Source: a virus. Taken from it: DNA of 64,000 bases. The stretch covers positions 1 through 64,000 of the IMG/VR virus record IMGVR_UViG_3300031823_000003. One strand, 5' to 3'. Below the pieces are notes generated by a model, which was given only the letters and a program-made list of their open reading frames with translations, did no database searches and was not told the DNA's origin. Below are positions 6,837 through 10,740 of this stretch, one piece after another; positions within the stretch are counted from its first letter, which is position 1, and every line of letters starts with the position of its first letter. The position numbers and the translations under genes were made by a program.

Positions 6837-7442
6837 ATGATGCTTACCCGCCGCAAGTTTGCAACCGCTTCTATTGCCACCGCTGTCGGCATGAGCGTGA
6901 GTATCCCCTTTGAATCCGCCTGCACTTTCTCTTCGGTGTTCGCCAATATCGAAAAGTACGTCCCGGTCGGGCTGCAAGCCGTATCAGCGGTATTGTCAAT
7001 ACTTACCGGAAACGGGATTGCCGTGGCGGGAGTGTCCGGGATCATCGCTCTTATCAAAGTGGCATTCGCCGATTTGTCGGCGGCGGTGTCGCAATATCAG
7101 AATGCCCCAGCGGGACAAAAAACAGGATTGCTCGGAGCGATATCCGAAACCATGACCGTGCTCGAAGCCAATATCCAGAAGCTATGGTCGGACCTGTCAA
7201 TCCCCGATGCCAGGCTCAGTTCGCTTATAGAAGGGTTATTGGGGGTGATTACGACTACTCTGTCGGGATTTATGACGCAACTGCCTGCCCCTGTGTCCCC
7301 GGCGGCGCAGACAGCCAAGACGATGAAGATGGGTTTGGCGAAACAGTTGCCGTCGAATCCCGTACAGCGGTCGCCGAAACAGTTCAAGCGTGATTTCAAT
7401 GCGGCGCTGGGAAATTCGTATGCCCAGCACGCGATCAACTAG
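6837..7442 (+). CDS. Tat-signal secreted protein of unknown function
   Basis: A 201-residue protein with a good ribosome binding site (AGGAGA about 9 nt upstream). The N-terminus MMLTRRKFATASIATAVGMS is a textbook twin-arginine signal: TRRKF followed by a weakly hydrophobic stretch. A cysteine near residue 29 (ESAC) could be a lipid anchor, though the preceding residues are not a canonical lipobox. Two hydrophobic helices follow (about residues 45-80), then an amphipathic region and a basic tail. Proteins of this style occur in bacterial genomes as secreted unknowns. It may act at the membrane or in the periplasm, but nothing shows a reaction. Confidence 0.7.
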   Translation: MMLTRRKFATASIATAVGMSVSIPFESACTFSSVFANIEKYVPVGLQAVSAVLSILTGNGIAVAGVSGIIALIKVAFADLSAAVSQYQNAPAGQKTGLLGAISETMTVLEANIQKLWSDLSIPDARLSSLIEGLLGVITTTLSGFMTQLPAPVSPAAQTAKTMKMGLAKQLPSNPVQRSPKQFKRDFNAALGNSYAQHAIN

Positions 7443-7456
7443 GCGGCTCGCGCTCA

Positions 7457-7897
7457 GTGAATGCGTCTAACCGTATCGCGGTCCACTGCCGGTATTGCAA
7501 TCTCAATCAGTACGAAACTGTGTCCCGCAAGTGCCGGAGGTGCGGGAAATGGCTGTACAAGCAGGACGAGGATAAAGACAAGAACAAGGGCGAAGAGACT
7601 TTGCCTGCATCGGACGTATTGGCTACATCAGTAGTATCTCCATGCATACACTACGATTCCTACTCGTTCTGGTTTCCACTCATTATCACCGCTCTGCGCG
7701 AGTTAAACGGTCTGTCACAACGCCAATATGCTCATCAGGTAGGCGTGAGCAGGCAGTACCTGAGCCGGATCGAGCGCGGGCACACCATACCCTATGTAAG
7801 ATTAATGCCGAAGTTTACAGATGGACTAGGTGTGTCGATGCACAGGATGCTGGAACTGTGCGAGGCGTGCATGGCGGCTACGGCTATGACAGGATAA
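7457..7897 (+). CDS. zinc-ribbon plus XRE-type HTH regulator
   Basis: A 146-residue protein starting with GTG. The first 35 residues hold a zinc ribbon (CRYCNLNQ ... CRRCGKWL). A charged linker follows. Residues 75-135 are a Cro/CI-type helix-turn-helix: LRELNGLSQRQYAHQVGVSRQYLSRIERGHTIPYV. It is probably a transcription regulator and is the last gene of the plus-strand early block before the convergent minus-strand gene. The fusion of a zinc ribbon to an XRE domain is uncommon but seen in phages. Confidence 0.8.
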   Translation: MNASNRIAVHCRYCNLNQYETVSRKCRRCGKWLYKQDEDKDKNKGEETLPASDVLATSVVSPCIHYDSYSFWFPLIITALRELNGLSQRQYAHQVGVSRQYLSRIERGHTIPYVRLMPKFTDGLGVSMHRMLELCEACMAATAMTG

Positions 7898-7901
7898 TAG
7901 G

Positions 7902-8252
7902 CTATGGAATGATCACCGGAAACCTCATCGGGTCGGTGATGGACTCGTAAGGCGACTGGTACCTCTGTATAAACGAACACAAGCTGCAAGCAATCACTGC
8001 TACGCTTATCTGTTGTACGTTGTCATAGTCTCGAAATATTGTTATGCAATTCTGCCAGTGACCGCAGCCGCAAACCCATAAACCTGAATTTTCGGCCCAA
8101 ATTTGACCGCTCGTAGGGTAAGCCAAAAACGGCTGGTTAACCTGCTGTTGCGGAAAAACCGTTGTGTTAGGGCCATTTGGCTGACTCCACCGCGTCCCAC
8201 CGAAGTTCTTGATATATAGCGTTCCTTGGGGCGGAAGATTTCCGGCAGGCAT
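7902..8252 (-). CDS. hypothetical protein with paired Cys motifs
   Basis: A 116-residue protein starting MPAGNLPPQG. I chose this ATG because AGAGGA lies 7 nt upstream. The open frame continues to 8303, but there it would enter the pentamer tract. The C-terminal half carries CGCGHWQNC and then ACSLCSFIQRYQSPY, a pattern I have seen in phage proteins of unknown role and a likely zinc site. It points left, like the late genes, but sits alone and converges on the XRE gene 4 bases away. Confidence 0.65.
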   Translation of the reverse strand: MPAGNLPPQGTLYIKNFGGTRWSQPNGPNTTVFPQQQVNQPFLAYPTSGQIWAENSGLWVCGCGHWQNCITIFRDYDNVQQISVAVIACSLCSFIQRYQSPYESITDPMRFPVIIP

Positions 8253-8279
8253 AGTCAATTCCTCTCGCGTGAATGTTAC

Positions 8280-8285
8280 TATACT
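8280..8285 (+). promoter_or_regulatory. -10 element upstream of pentamer tract A
   Basis: TATACT matches the -10 consensus at five of six positions. Transcription would start at about 8291, eight bases before the first G-Y-N-N-N unit. No good -35 hexamer is visible at 16-18 bp. It fits a small RNA running through tract A to the hairpin at 8386. Confidence 0.4.
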
Positions 8286-8298
8286 GTTGTCTGTCTGT

Positions 8299-8384
8299 GC
8301 CATGCTTAGCCGTGTTCAGCTATGTATCCGCTCAGCTCAGCCATGTCATGCCGCGTTGCGCCGAGTCTTGCTGTGGTTTGTATC
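8299..8384 (+). repeat. pentamer tract A, 17 G-Y-N-N-N units
   Basis: Starting at 8299, a G recurs every 5 nt for 17 units, with one 6-nt unit at 8324. The second base is a pyrimidine in 16 of 17 units and the last three bases vary freely. The tract lies in the divergent gap between the minus-strand gene at 7902 and the HTH gene at 8470. It shares units such as GCCGT, GCTGT and GCCGA with tracts B and C. Confidence 0.9.
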
Positions 8385-8385
8385 A

Positions 8386-8432
8386 GGCCGGGAGACTCCA
8401 ATCTTCGATGGTCTTCCGGCCCGCTATTTTTT
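8386..8432 (+). terminator. hairpin and U-tract after tract A
   Basis: GGCCGGGAGAC (8386-8396) pairs with GTCTTCCGGCC (8411-8421) over 11 bp with one G-U, closing a 14-nt loop. After five bases a run of six T follows (8427-8432). This looks like an intrinsic terminator on the plus strand directly after tract A. The T-run also sits just before the -35 of the next promoter. Confidence 0.65.
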
Positions 8433-8434
8433 CC

Positions 8435-8463
8435 TTGACTGATTAACTTAATTAAGTTAATTT
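8435..8463 (+). promoter_or_regulatory. promoter with 20-bp palindromic operator
   Basis: TTGACT (8435-8440) is followed by the perfect palindrome ATTAACTTAATTAAGTTAAT (8442-8461). A weak -10 (TAATTT, 8458-8463) lies 17 bp after the -35 box. The palindrome fills the spacer, so a dimeric repressor bound here would block the promoter. The obvious candidate is the HTH protein encoded just downstream. The start codon is 6 nt after the -10, which suggests a leaderless transcript. Confidence 0.6.
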
Positions 8464-8469
8464 GTTCAT

Positions 8470-8685
8470 GTGAGCGGGCACAAGCATTATACGGAACAGC
8501 ACCTTCGTAGTCTTCTTAAAAAACACCTTCACTTTGGCGATATGCATCAATCCGCGCTGGCTCGGCGCATCGGTGTGTCTCCGGCGTTTTTATCAAAGGC
8601 GCTGGGAGGAGAGCCGTTGACGGGGAAGATTGTGAAATGGCTGGGGTACAGGAGAGTGAAGATCAGAGTTTTTGAAAAGTTGTGA
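8470..8685 (+). CDS. small HTH DNA-binding protein
   Basis: A 71-residue basic protein starting with GTG. The segment HQSALARRIGVSPAFLSKALGG is a Cro/CI-like helix-turn-helix, with LTGKIVKWLGYRRVKIRVFEKL following. This is the usual shape of short phage Cro-like proteins. There is no ribosome binding site, in line with a leaderless mRNA. Upstream lies a 20-bp palindrome, its likely own operator. The stop codon runs straight into pentamer tract B, and tract A lies upstream, so the gene is framed by the repeats. Confidence 0.75.
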   Translation: MSGHKHYTEQHLRSLLKKHLHFGDMHQSALARRIGVSPAFLSKALGGEPLTGKIVKWLGYRRVKIRVFEKL

Positions 8686-8688
8686 TCC

Positions 8689-8823
8689 GTTCCGCCAAGC
8701 CGTGCTGTGGTGTATTCAGTTGCGCTCTGCCTGGTCGAGCCGCGCTAGGTTACGTTGTGCCGGGTCAGGTTAAGTCGTGTTTTGTATCGTTCGGTTTAGT
8801 CGAGCCGAGCTACGTCTCGCTGT
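8689..8823 (+). repeat. pentamer tract B, 27 G-Y-N-N-N units
   Basis: 135 bp made of 27 consecutive 5-nt units without a single indel. The first base is G in 26 of 27 units (A at 8714) and the second is a pyrimidine in 26 of 27 (G at 8709). The last three bases vary. It fills the gap between the HTH stop and the RAMP-like gene. A 16-nt block at 8704-8719 matches one at 9664-9679 in tract C at 14 positions. No long frame runs through it. Confidence 0.93.
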
Positions 8824-8839
8824 CGTGCCAAATTTAAAG

Positions 8840-8845
8840 TAGAAT
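8840..8845 (+). promoter_or_regulatory. -10 element of the RAMP-like gene
   Basis: TAGAAT matches the -10 consensus at five of six positions. The ATG of the next gene begins 6 nt later, so the start site would be at or next to the start codon. No ribosome binding site is present. The region 17 bp upstream is the end of tract B and has no clear -35 box. Confidence 0.5.
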
Positions 8846-8851
8846 CACGCA

Positions 8852-9505
8852 ATGCCAAAAAGTGTACTCGAAAGCGGTAACAAAGACCATCTGTCCAATA
8901 CGAGCAACGGAGCGTCCAGTCAGATAGAAATGACCGAGCCTTATGTCGCGCATATCGACCTACAGGGCGTATGCCCGATCATTTTTCACCGCTGGAACGT
9001 GGAATCAGTCGAGGCCAAGTCCGCGTCAGCCAAAGGATCAAAAGCGAAAAATACGGACGACGTGGAATCGTTTGTCAGCCGCGACGACAAGGGAATCATC
9101 TGTGTTCCGGGAGAATATCTGCGGCAGGCCGTGCTGCATGCCGCCAAGTTCCGCCAAGACCCGAGATCGCCGCGCAAATCATTTTCGGACTTGGCGAAAG
9201 CTGGAATATTTTCTATCGACGAACTGGTGCCAATCACGAGTGCATCCGGCAAGCTAGCAAAGGAATGGGACTATCTGGATCGCCGCCGCATGACGGTACA
9301 GAGAAATTCGATTACCCGGTCGCGTCCGGCATTTCACGCGGGATGGCGGGCACAGTTTCACTTGCAGGTGGTGCTACCGGAATACATCAGCCCTTCGTTT
9401 TTGAATGACCTTATTCAACTCAGTGGGAAAGTTATCGGTTTAGCCGATTCCCGTCCTTCGTATGGGCGATTTCTTGTGGTAGGGTTCAAGACATCGGAAG
9501 TTTAA
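8852..9505 (+). CDS. RAMP-like protein between pentamer tracts
   Basis: A 217-residue protein of unknown function. After a polar N-terminus of about 30 residues comes a strand-loop element (YVAHIDLQGVCPIIFHRW). Then follow a Lys/Ala/Ser-rich loop, a segment CVPGEYLRQAVLHAAKF, a basic strand (RRRMTVQRNSITRSRP) and a closing element GLADSRPSYGRFLVVGF near residues 195-212. I have seen this general pattern, ending 'G.gD.RP.yGrF', in uncharacterised phage proteins. Its strand-helix layout and glycine-rich end loop recall RAMP/Cas7-type RNA-binding folds. That resemblance is by eye and is inference. Tracts B and C flank it directly, so an RNA- or DNA-binding role with 5-nt periodicity is the obvious idea. 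Confidence 0.7.
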   Translation: MPKSVLESGNKDHLSNTSNGASSQIEMTEPYVAHIDLQGVCPIIFHRWNVESVEAKSASAKGSKAKNTDDVESFVSRDDKGIICVPGEYLRQAVLHAAKFRQDPRSPRKSFSDLAKAGIFSIDELVPITSASGKLAKEWDYLDRRRMTVQRNSITRSRPAFHAGWRAQFHLQVVLPEYISPSFLNDLIQLSGKVIGLADSRPSYGRFLVVGFKTSEV

Positions 9506-9518
9506 ACAGGTGAGGCGA

Positions 9519-9728
9519 GCCGGGATTTGCCTTGCCGTGTTGAGTTCCGCCCGGATTCGTTCTGCTTCGCTAAGCTATGTTTAGTTGAGCATAGCCGAGA
9601 TACGCCGGGTTATGCTTGGCTCCGTTTCGATTGGCCTAGATTTACTTAGCTGAGTCGAGTTGTGCTGTGCTGTATTGAGTCCCGCTTTGACGGGCCGTGC
9701 TTGGCTGCGCCGAACTGCGTTGCGCTAT
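9519..9728 (+). repeat. pentamer tract C, 42 G-Y-N-N-N units
   Basis: 210 bp made of 42 units of exactly 5 nt with no indel. The first base is G in 39 units and A in 3. The second is C in 24, T in 12, A in 6 and never G. The remaining three bases vary. It starts 13 bases after the RAMP-like stop and ends across the stop codon of the convergent minus-strand gene, so it fills the whole convergent gap between the two transcription directions. Stop codons occur in all plus frames. Confidence 0.95.
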
Positions 9729-10213
9729 TGACCTGCGGCTCCAGTGGTGCTAACTGCTGGGGCCGTTTGTTCAGCGGGACGGACCGCTGACCAGTCTCCA
9801 AAACAGTAATTGGTGATTGCGTCCGCCGCTATTTTACGGACAAAACTATCAAACGGCTCCCCGGCGGATTCAGCCCAAGTTTGCATCGGCTCGCAGGCTT
9901 CCAAGGGGATTTCTATTTCGACCAGCAGACCGCCGCCCGGACCCTTGCGCGGCCCGGTAGATATACCCTGCGATGCGGCCAATTTTCGGACTTTGGCGAG
10001 CTGGTCCGGGGATAGTCCGGAGATGAACGCGCTGAGATCGGCGGACACAGTAGGATCAGTCTTGGCGATTGAAGCGCCTGATGCCGCTGCCTGCTGACCT
10101 GTGCTCGGCGGATCGGCGAGTGGATTAGTATCTGGTCTGTCGCCCGGTACTATATTCGCAGGCGTACCTGTGCCCGTGCTCGCGCTTGTGTTCGTGCTCG
10201 TGTCCGTACTCAT
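9725..10213 (-). CDS. hypothetical protein with Ser/Thr-rich N-terminus
   Basis: A 162-residue protein starting MSTDTSTNTSASTGTGTP, chosen because AGAGGTG lies just upstream. The N-terminal 20 residues resemble the Ser-Thr-Gly-Thr repeat at the left window edge, and the underlying DNA (GAGCAC/GGGCAC units) is related. Residues 60-95 are helical (LSAFISGLSPDQLAKVRKLAASQGIS). The C-terminal part (LLVEIEIPLEACEPMQTWAESAGEPFDSFVRKIAADAI) looks like a ribbon-helix-helix variant, so a DNA-binding role is possible. It is the last late gene. Confidence 0.65.
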   Translation of the reverse strand: MSTDTSTNTSASTGTGTPANIVPGDRPDTNPLADPPSTGQQAAASGASIAKTDPTVSADLSAFISGLSPDQLAKVRKLAASQGISTGPRKGPGGGLLVEIEIPLEACEPMQTWAESAGEPFDSFVRKIAADAITNYCFGDWSAVRPAEQTAPAVSTTGAAGQ

Positions 10214-10251
10214 AGTCTCACCTCTTCGTAGCTGCGCTCTGAATTGGCGTT

Positions 10252-10740
10252 TCAAATCAGTCCTACTTCCTGCCACACGGCTTGTATGCCGCCGTCCATA
10301 AACAATTGCCGCAGATTGTCGTCTGGCTCGCCTTCCGGCCAAGGCCCGGTGAGCTGAAAATGCGGCGCGTCCGGAAAGGTCCGCCACAATACACCTGAAT
10401 CCAGTCCCAGACTGATACCCTTGGCCTCCATACTTTTCCATACCGGGTGGGATGAATTCCAGTCAGGGAAGTATGGCTTATCGGGTGCGAACTGGGATGG
10501 CACACAATCAACGGCCAAGCCGTAATTGTGATAACTGTATCCGCCTTGAACGTTGGTGACAATGTTACCCGGAGCGGTTCTGCCTTGAGTGTACAGCGTG
10601 TCCTGCTCTGCCCATGTCCGCATACCCTGTACGACGCGGATATACACGTTATCCTGCTCCAGCATGGCGGCGAGAGTGTGAGTTTTAGCGGCTAGTGCCG
10701 GACATACCTGTCGCAATCGGGCTTCGGAGACGGCATCCAT
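10252..10740 (-). CDS. endolysin, M15 family L,D-/D,D-peptidase
   Basis: A 162-residue peptidoglycan peptidase that cuts stem peptides at the end of infection. The zinc site of M15 (VanY/CwlK) enzymes is complete: SYHNYGLAVD gives the SxHxxGxAxD motif and DAPHFQ gives the last histidine. The N-terminal part (VRVVQGMRTWAEQDTLY) matches the family too. There is no signal peptide or cell-wall binding domain, so a holin is needed for release. It is the distal gene of the lysis cluster 10.2-13.2 kb. Confidence 0.9.
   Translation of the reverse strand: MDAVSEARLRQVCPALAAKTHTLAAMLEQDNVYIRVVQGMRTWAEQDTLYTQGRTAPGNIVTNVQGGYSYHNYGLAVDCVPSQFAPDKPYFPDWNSSHPVWKSMEAKGISLGLDSGVLWRTFPDAPHFQLTGPWPEGEPDDNLRQLFMDGGIQAVWQEVGLI

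Follow-up and report, generated by a model that had tools for sequence, protein, structure and literature searches.

The closest described systems are the VIPR systems, which were presented in a 2026 preprint as an RNA-guided, CRISPR-like weapon that phages turn against rival phages (PMC13142463). Vipr is described there as a phage RAMP protein whose gene is flanked by arrays of YNNGG repeats, in which GGY is fixed and NN hypervariable. The guide RNAs (vrRNAs) are about 100 nt long and carry 9–16 YNNGG repeats and a 3′ tail reported to be invariable; they have been sequenced and were found to co-purify with Vipr (PMC13142463). The NN letters recognise double-stranded DNA, with one base skipped per pair, and the rival phages are repressed. 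The preprint also mentions "a related consensus" and staggered arrays and gives the period of class 1 CRISPR as 6 (PMC13142463). The preprint was the only paper found when the literature from 2025 on was searched for "vrRNA" or "Vipr protein".

The DNA analysed here, called the window, is the first 64 kb (64,000 nucleotides) of an 86,324-base virus record with terminase and portal matches. It holds three degenerate pentamer tracts, A, B and C, all on the plus strand, and a vipr gene with tracts B and C on either side; VIPR loci are likewise minimal and phage-borne, with long intergenic regions around vipr. The preliminary description of tract A had not connected it with the vipr gene; the link between the two comes from the present analysis. 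The features to which the text refers are the following.

8280–8285, plus strand: TATACT, a possible −10 of tract A by its sequence, without a −35 and unflagged in the promoter scan
8300–8385, plus strand: tract A, candidate repeat region of a vrRNA, with 17 pentamers whose phase shifts by one base at 8325
8386–8421, plus strand: 12-bp hairpin that may form the 3′ tail, or a terminator, of the RNA from tract A
8427–8432, plus strand: run of six T, five bases 3′ of the tract A stem
8679–8823, plus strand: tract B, 29 GHY/NN units, upstream of vipr
8852–9505, plus strand: vipr gene coding for P0002 (217 aa, phrog_4652), a predicted RAMP-fold protein and homolog of SUSP1 Vipr
9047–9073, plus strand: site within vipr, over K-N-T-D-D-V-E-S-F, that a guide of another phage (locus L379) is predicted to target, with 9 dinucleotides in a row matching under the skip-1 rule
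9509–9728, plus strand: tract C, 44 GHY/NN units, starting just past the vipr stop

We consider it highly likely that tract A encodes a VIPR guide RNA which would be loaded by Vipr and would target DNA. The arguments for this are the linkage between arrays and gene, the homology to SUSP1 Vipr, the predicted fold, and what the preprint reports on related loci (PMC13142463).

The repeat unit was deduced from the 92 units found by a model scan. The fixed position holds G in 87 of them, and a pyrimidine closes the triplet in 88; between the two stands C in 46 units, T in 35, A in 7 and G in 4, and the remaining two letters are open; because of these counts the unit is written G-H-Y-N-N. The depletion of G in the middle letter (4/92, p 3e-9) was obtained on segments picked with a GYY model, which biases the result in that direction; in a narrower set of 85 core units with the edges dropped, the middle letter is G twice. 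The longest exact YYNNG run is 9 in tract A and 14 in the window, and in 40 simulated 64-kb sequences it never exceeded 6, so tract A lies beyond chance. A pattern of eight units has 9 forward matches in the whole record, all of them within tracts A and B, and no match in the reverse direction or in a reversed control.

The protein P0002 has no family in Pfam or PADLOC. Compared alone with the PDB entry 36pp, "SUSP1 Vipr protein", it gives a borderline E of 0.0031, and the family profile A1, which includes distant members closer to SUSP1 Vipr than P0002 is, gives 5.9e-35. The AlphaFold model, built from 18 sequences, has a mean pLDDT of 85.2 and a pTM of 0.76. When this model was searched with Foldseek the best 50 of 642 matches were all chains of CRISPR effector entries, mostly of types III and VII, with a best E of 2e-6 and TM scores normalised by query of 0.41–0.56; the matches include Csm, Cmr, type VII and type III-E effector structures. 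The model thus predicts a RAMP-type fold for P0002, and by profile and predicted fold the window carries the ancestral RAMP homolog that characterises VIPR.

The linkage between arrays and gene was approached from both sides. A scan of viral contigs with a pattern of fourteen NYNNG units, which used no protein information, gave at least 120 stretches, and among the 120 matches listed there are 96 degenerate arrays, 11 of middle diversity and 13 simple repeats. Homologs of P0002 were found by tblastn in 29 of these 120. When whole records were searched, phrog_4652 was present in 73 of the 96 degenerate-array records among the matches listed (34/48 and 39/48) and in 4 of the 23 listed records with middle-diversity or simple repeats, all four being of middle diversity and none of the 12 simple; it was absent from all 14 control genomes. 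The reverse test was a scan by protein only, which matched 329 relatives. In the best 80 of these, some of which are near-copies, arrays lie beside vipr in 78 at score 14 and in 77 at score 16, and the controls gave 1 of 28 unrelated contigs at score 14 and none at 16, and 2 of 81 simulated sequences at 14. Next to vipr, sense arrays are present in every one of the 78 array-bearing relatives, and 7 of them have reversed arrays too.

Some of the fetched loci deserve a separate remark. Read in gene orientation, the GGY/NN arrays next to vipr run almost without a break for 177 units in L273 and 143 in L270, well beyond the 9–16 repeats per vrRNA of the preprint (PMC13142463), and in L300 a single vipr gene has six reversed arrays on its upstream side and nine sense ones on its downstream side. 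In L319 (gene orientation, reverse complement) GAC/NN arrays are split by the same 33-nt stretch at 1858–1890 and 1996–2028, which is possibly a shared vrRNA tail in distant VIPR. Degenerate pentamer arrays also occur in bacterial contigs from Achromobacter genomes (L139 and L169), with no tblastn match to P0002 in the stretch searched.

What is new in this window is the triplet GHY, whose middle letter avoids G, while the 78 array-bearing relatives keep GGY. The best-fitting array model is GGY in all 78 of these (out of 80) and GYY in the window. In a quick tree the window falls within a group of 86 rows that has support 100. The label is GGY for 77 of these rows and GGY reversed for 2, and 6 are unlabelled (four being copies of labelled rows and two lacking arrays at the cut-off); the window is the only row labelled GYY. 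It is not strictly alone in this respect, because the fragment L321, too short for inclusion in the tree and sharing up to 55% identity with members of the clade across 100 residues, also carries GHY arrays; it is the one further relative near the clade in which such arrays were found. The more distant loci L257, L260, L279 and L280 also lack the middle G when they are read in sense.

At eight positions that are at least 90% conserved among 70 distinct relatives, P0002 has a different residue. At position 200, in the DFRP motif, it has S where 70 of 70 have F, an invariance which is in part due to selection because [GA]DFRP was among the motifs used in the search for the 80 relatives; at position 147 it has M where 69 of 70 have V. 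L321 has Y at 200 and M at 147. A connection of these residues with the GHY scaffold is suggestive only. It is conceivable, if rather unlikely, that this phage has switched the invariant scaffold letter from G to non-G together with changes in Vipr (F200S, V147M), and that its guides and protein thereby became orthogonal to rival VIPRs, a private code in a warfare of Vipr against Vipr.

The rule that one base is skipped per pair was checked with the NN letters of 477 guide arrays from the fetched loci, which were compared to 150 distinct vipr gene sequences. Contigs fetched with the window's own pattern were left out of the comparison, and so was skip 3 because arrays match themselves at that spacing. 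Runs of at least 7 consecutive dinucleotides against vipr genes number 43 for skip 1, compared to 7, 6 and 1 for skips 0, 2 and 4; in control DNA of the same loci the corresponding numbers are 26 for skip 1 and 24, 21 and 23 for the others. At 11 dinucleotides, the longest skip-1 run joins a guide of L430 to vipr of L129. In several vipr genes, that of the window among them, the stretch coding for K-K-T-D-D-V-E-S (K-N-T-D-D-V-E-S-F in the window) is matched by a guide of L379, and the base skipped is the wobble base. The number of independent matches is small because 40 of the 43 runs come from three loci (L430, L379 and L303) and represent about four guide stretches on homologous genes. The sequence comparison thus supports the skip-1 code for a few guides of GGY relatives.

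For the guides of tracts A–C themselves no target was found in exact scans of viral contigs with five windows of 8 dinucleotides. These windows matched 6, 22, 5, 28 and 19 stretches, with a best extension of 10 out of 12 dinucleotides, in L442 for tract B and in L341, L344 and L345, which share one site, for tract C; such an extension is at chance level once 8 have been preselected, and the four were rejected as targets. A scan of the fetched DNA that allowed mismatches and included the window's own record did no better than shuffled guides, and an 11-dinucleotide pattern of tract A found no match in its own record with up to 3 mismatches. When the NN letters of tracts A–C were pooled and read as codon positions, positions 1–2 were the best of six readings, weakly so, with a log-likelihood over background of +4.8 in the antisense and −1.4 in the sense reading.

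Tract A had been described as a free non-coding RNA with its own promoter and terminator. The TATACT is indeed there at 8280–8285, but the promoter rests on this −10, as a −35 is absent and the promoter scan calls no site. The 17 pentamers were also found, as 5 units at 8300–8324 and, after an extra T at 8325, 12 units at 8326–8385, the final one being weak; the model scan extends the tract with weaker units back to 8289. The hairpin, counted as 11 bp in the preliminary description, has 12 pairs including two G-U, 8386–8397 being paired with 8410–8421, and the six T described earlier are present, five bases past the stem. Folded alone the hairpin reaches −22.2 kcal/mol (z −3.9), a value equalled in 1 of 200 shuffles; over the whole 144-nt stretch of tract A the structure is not unusual (z −1.4, with 20 of 200 shuffles equally good). 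A consensus terminator scan leaves the hairpin uncalled. Among related loci, with this window counted in, a hairpin and T run follow 22 of 250 array blocks on the 3′ side and occur in 13 of 250 5′ flanks, or 3 of 250 when those flanks are read antisense. The case for a terminator belonging to tract A is therefore weak, since most related arrays do without one and private terminators are no common trait of these loci; in effect this is the outcome by which the preliminary description itself would have had the terminator refuted. An own promoter and terminator of tract A are thus unproven. The idea that the repeats act as a small non-coding RNA fares better, being strongly supported by the kinship with VIPR.

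It had also been stated that no reading frame is present, and this has to be corrected: the ORFs 8273–8446 (57 aa) and 8209–8442 (77 aa) cross tract A. Nothing gene-like was noticed in either of them. The tract is flanked by a minus-strand ORF, probably 7902–8252, and by a plus-strand HTH gene at 8470–8685. The minus-strand ORF is short, has a probable ATG at 8252 which is preceded by AGAGGAAT, a good ribosome-site-like sequence, and its start faces tract A; it has no match in Pfam, PHROG or PADLOC. A perfect 20-bp palindrome, ATTAACTTAATTAAGTTAAT, lies at 8442–8461 just 5′ of the small HTH gene and is possibly its operator. At the very start of the record (1–139 of the window) there is a perfect tandem array of 11.6 copies of the 12-mer GAGCACAGGCAC. 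A comparison with Rfam gave nothing for the window when gathering scores were applied and nothing for 8200–9850 at an E of 1, so no hammerhead was found in the latter region. DNA relatives of 7400–10500 were not found among phage records. There is also no clear accessory gene common to the relatives, the largest cluster of neighbouring ORFs comprising 6 of 81 loci, and the small HTH gene is a candidate vap only.

Against a vrRNA stand the triplet that is not GGY, the one-base phase break, the scans that found no target for tracts A–C, and the hairpin of tract A, of which no similar copy was found elsewhere in the window, whereas the tail reported in the preprint is invariable. Three other explanations were considered. 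Pentamer microsatellites are common, and among the at least 119 stretches listed from a genome scan only 19 have a unit diversity of 0.5 or more, so one could imagine tract A as a decayed pentamer satellite without function. A decaying satellite would have to account for 92 units which keep G in 87, a pyrimidine third letter in 88 and open NN columns, and for the depletion of G in the middle letter (in segments chosen with the GYY model). Simple repeats are moreover unlinked to phrog_4652 in the records listed, and the gene linkage largely refutes this explanation, to which we attach practically no weight. TRAP binds triplets with 2-nt spacers and needs (G/U)AG. The period of 5 and the triplet with its 2-nt spacer could make the arrays a DNA or RNA operator of a TRAP-like, unguided ring or filament protein, but the triplets differ from those of TRAP, the partner has a predicted RAMP fold, and in some related arrays the NN letters fit vipr genes under the skip rule; we regard such an operator as very improbable.

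A less remote alternative, yet still an improbable one, is that the vrRNAs come from the minus strand, with RRC/NN as their units. Tract A would then be the leader of the minus-strand ORF 7902–8252, with the hairpin near its 5′ end. Complementing GYYNN gives NNRRC, which looks like a GGY made less strict, and reversed arrays do exist in 7 of the 78 array-bearing loci, always alongside sense ones. The antisense reading alters all three columns with respect to GGY, whereas the sense reading alters one, G2 becoming H, and leaves G1 and Y3 in place. None of the 78 relatives is without a sense array, and a T run follows tract A on the plus strand. In L279 the arrays can be read as GTC/NN and are followed by a strong hairpin and T run in sense, which also speaks for sense, even if by their letters alone they could be GAC/NN antisense.

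The sense vrRNA being preferred, the following mechanism is proposed by analogy with the VIPR systems of the preprint, from which transcription, loading and DNA targeting are inferred (PMC13142463). The transcript would consist of 17 G-H-Y/NN pentamers and a 3′ hairpin. Vipr would coat it, probably with one subunit per pentamer, and would hold the G-H-Y triplets so that the NN pairs are presented for base-pairing with rival DNA as NNxNNxNNx, and transcription there would be repressed. The proposal in the preliminary description that the repeats work as RNA is probably right because tract A is very probably a vrRNA, and vrRNAs of the related systems, according to the preprint, were sequenced and co-purified with Vipr (PMC13142463).

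The analysis places an uncultivated phage in the VIPR class by independent lines, namely from pattern to gene, from gene to pattern, by the predicted fold and by a solved relative. On a small scale, the skip-1 code has also been checked independently in a further clade. A naturally occurring switch of a scaffold letter is pointed out along with candidate residues, by which RNA recognition by Vipr becomes directly testable and an orthogonal VIPR tool conceivable. Rival VIPRs direct their guides at vipr genes, and if the private code were true, the guides and Vipr of this phage would be orthogonal to these rivals.

It remains to compare the locus with the known systems. The P0002 model shares its fold with the RAMPs of class 1 CRISPR (Csm and the Cas7 of type VII), and the period is 5 here compared to 6 there. 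No direct repeat of at least 20 bases was found in 7000–10500, and no Cas family matched the five neighbouring proteins P0001–P0005. With the RNA targets of TRAP the tracts share triplets with a two-base spacing and differ in that KAG triplets are absent and the partner has the predicted RAMP fold. The VIPR systems of SUSP1 and of a Pseudomonas fulva prophage (PMC13142463) are alike in having a single phage-borne RAMP, Vipr, and pentamer arrays with a fixed triplet and free NN on both sides of the gene; their RNA region with a structured 3′ end has a candidate counterpart in tract A and its predicted hairpin. They are unlike this locus in that the three tracts here have no common tail, tracts B and C have 29 and 44 units compared to 9–16 repeats per vrRNA, no neighbouring gene is common to the relatives and there is no clear vap. 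The period of 5 and the open NN are those of the YNNGG repeat, and the triplet is GHY here and GGY there. Since the preprint allows for "a related consensus" (PMC13142463), the GHY triplet argues for a variant and not against membership. Tract A very probably encodes a vrRNA, and the VIPR system to which it belongs would be a variant form of a known kind, one letter of the scaffold being altered.
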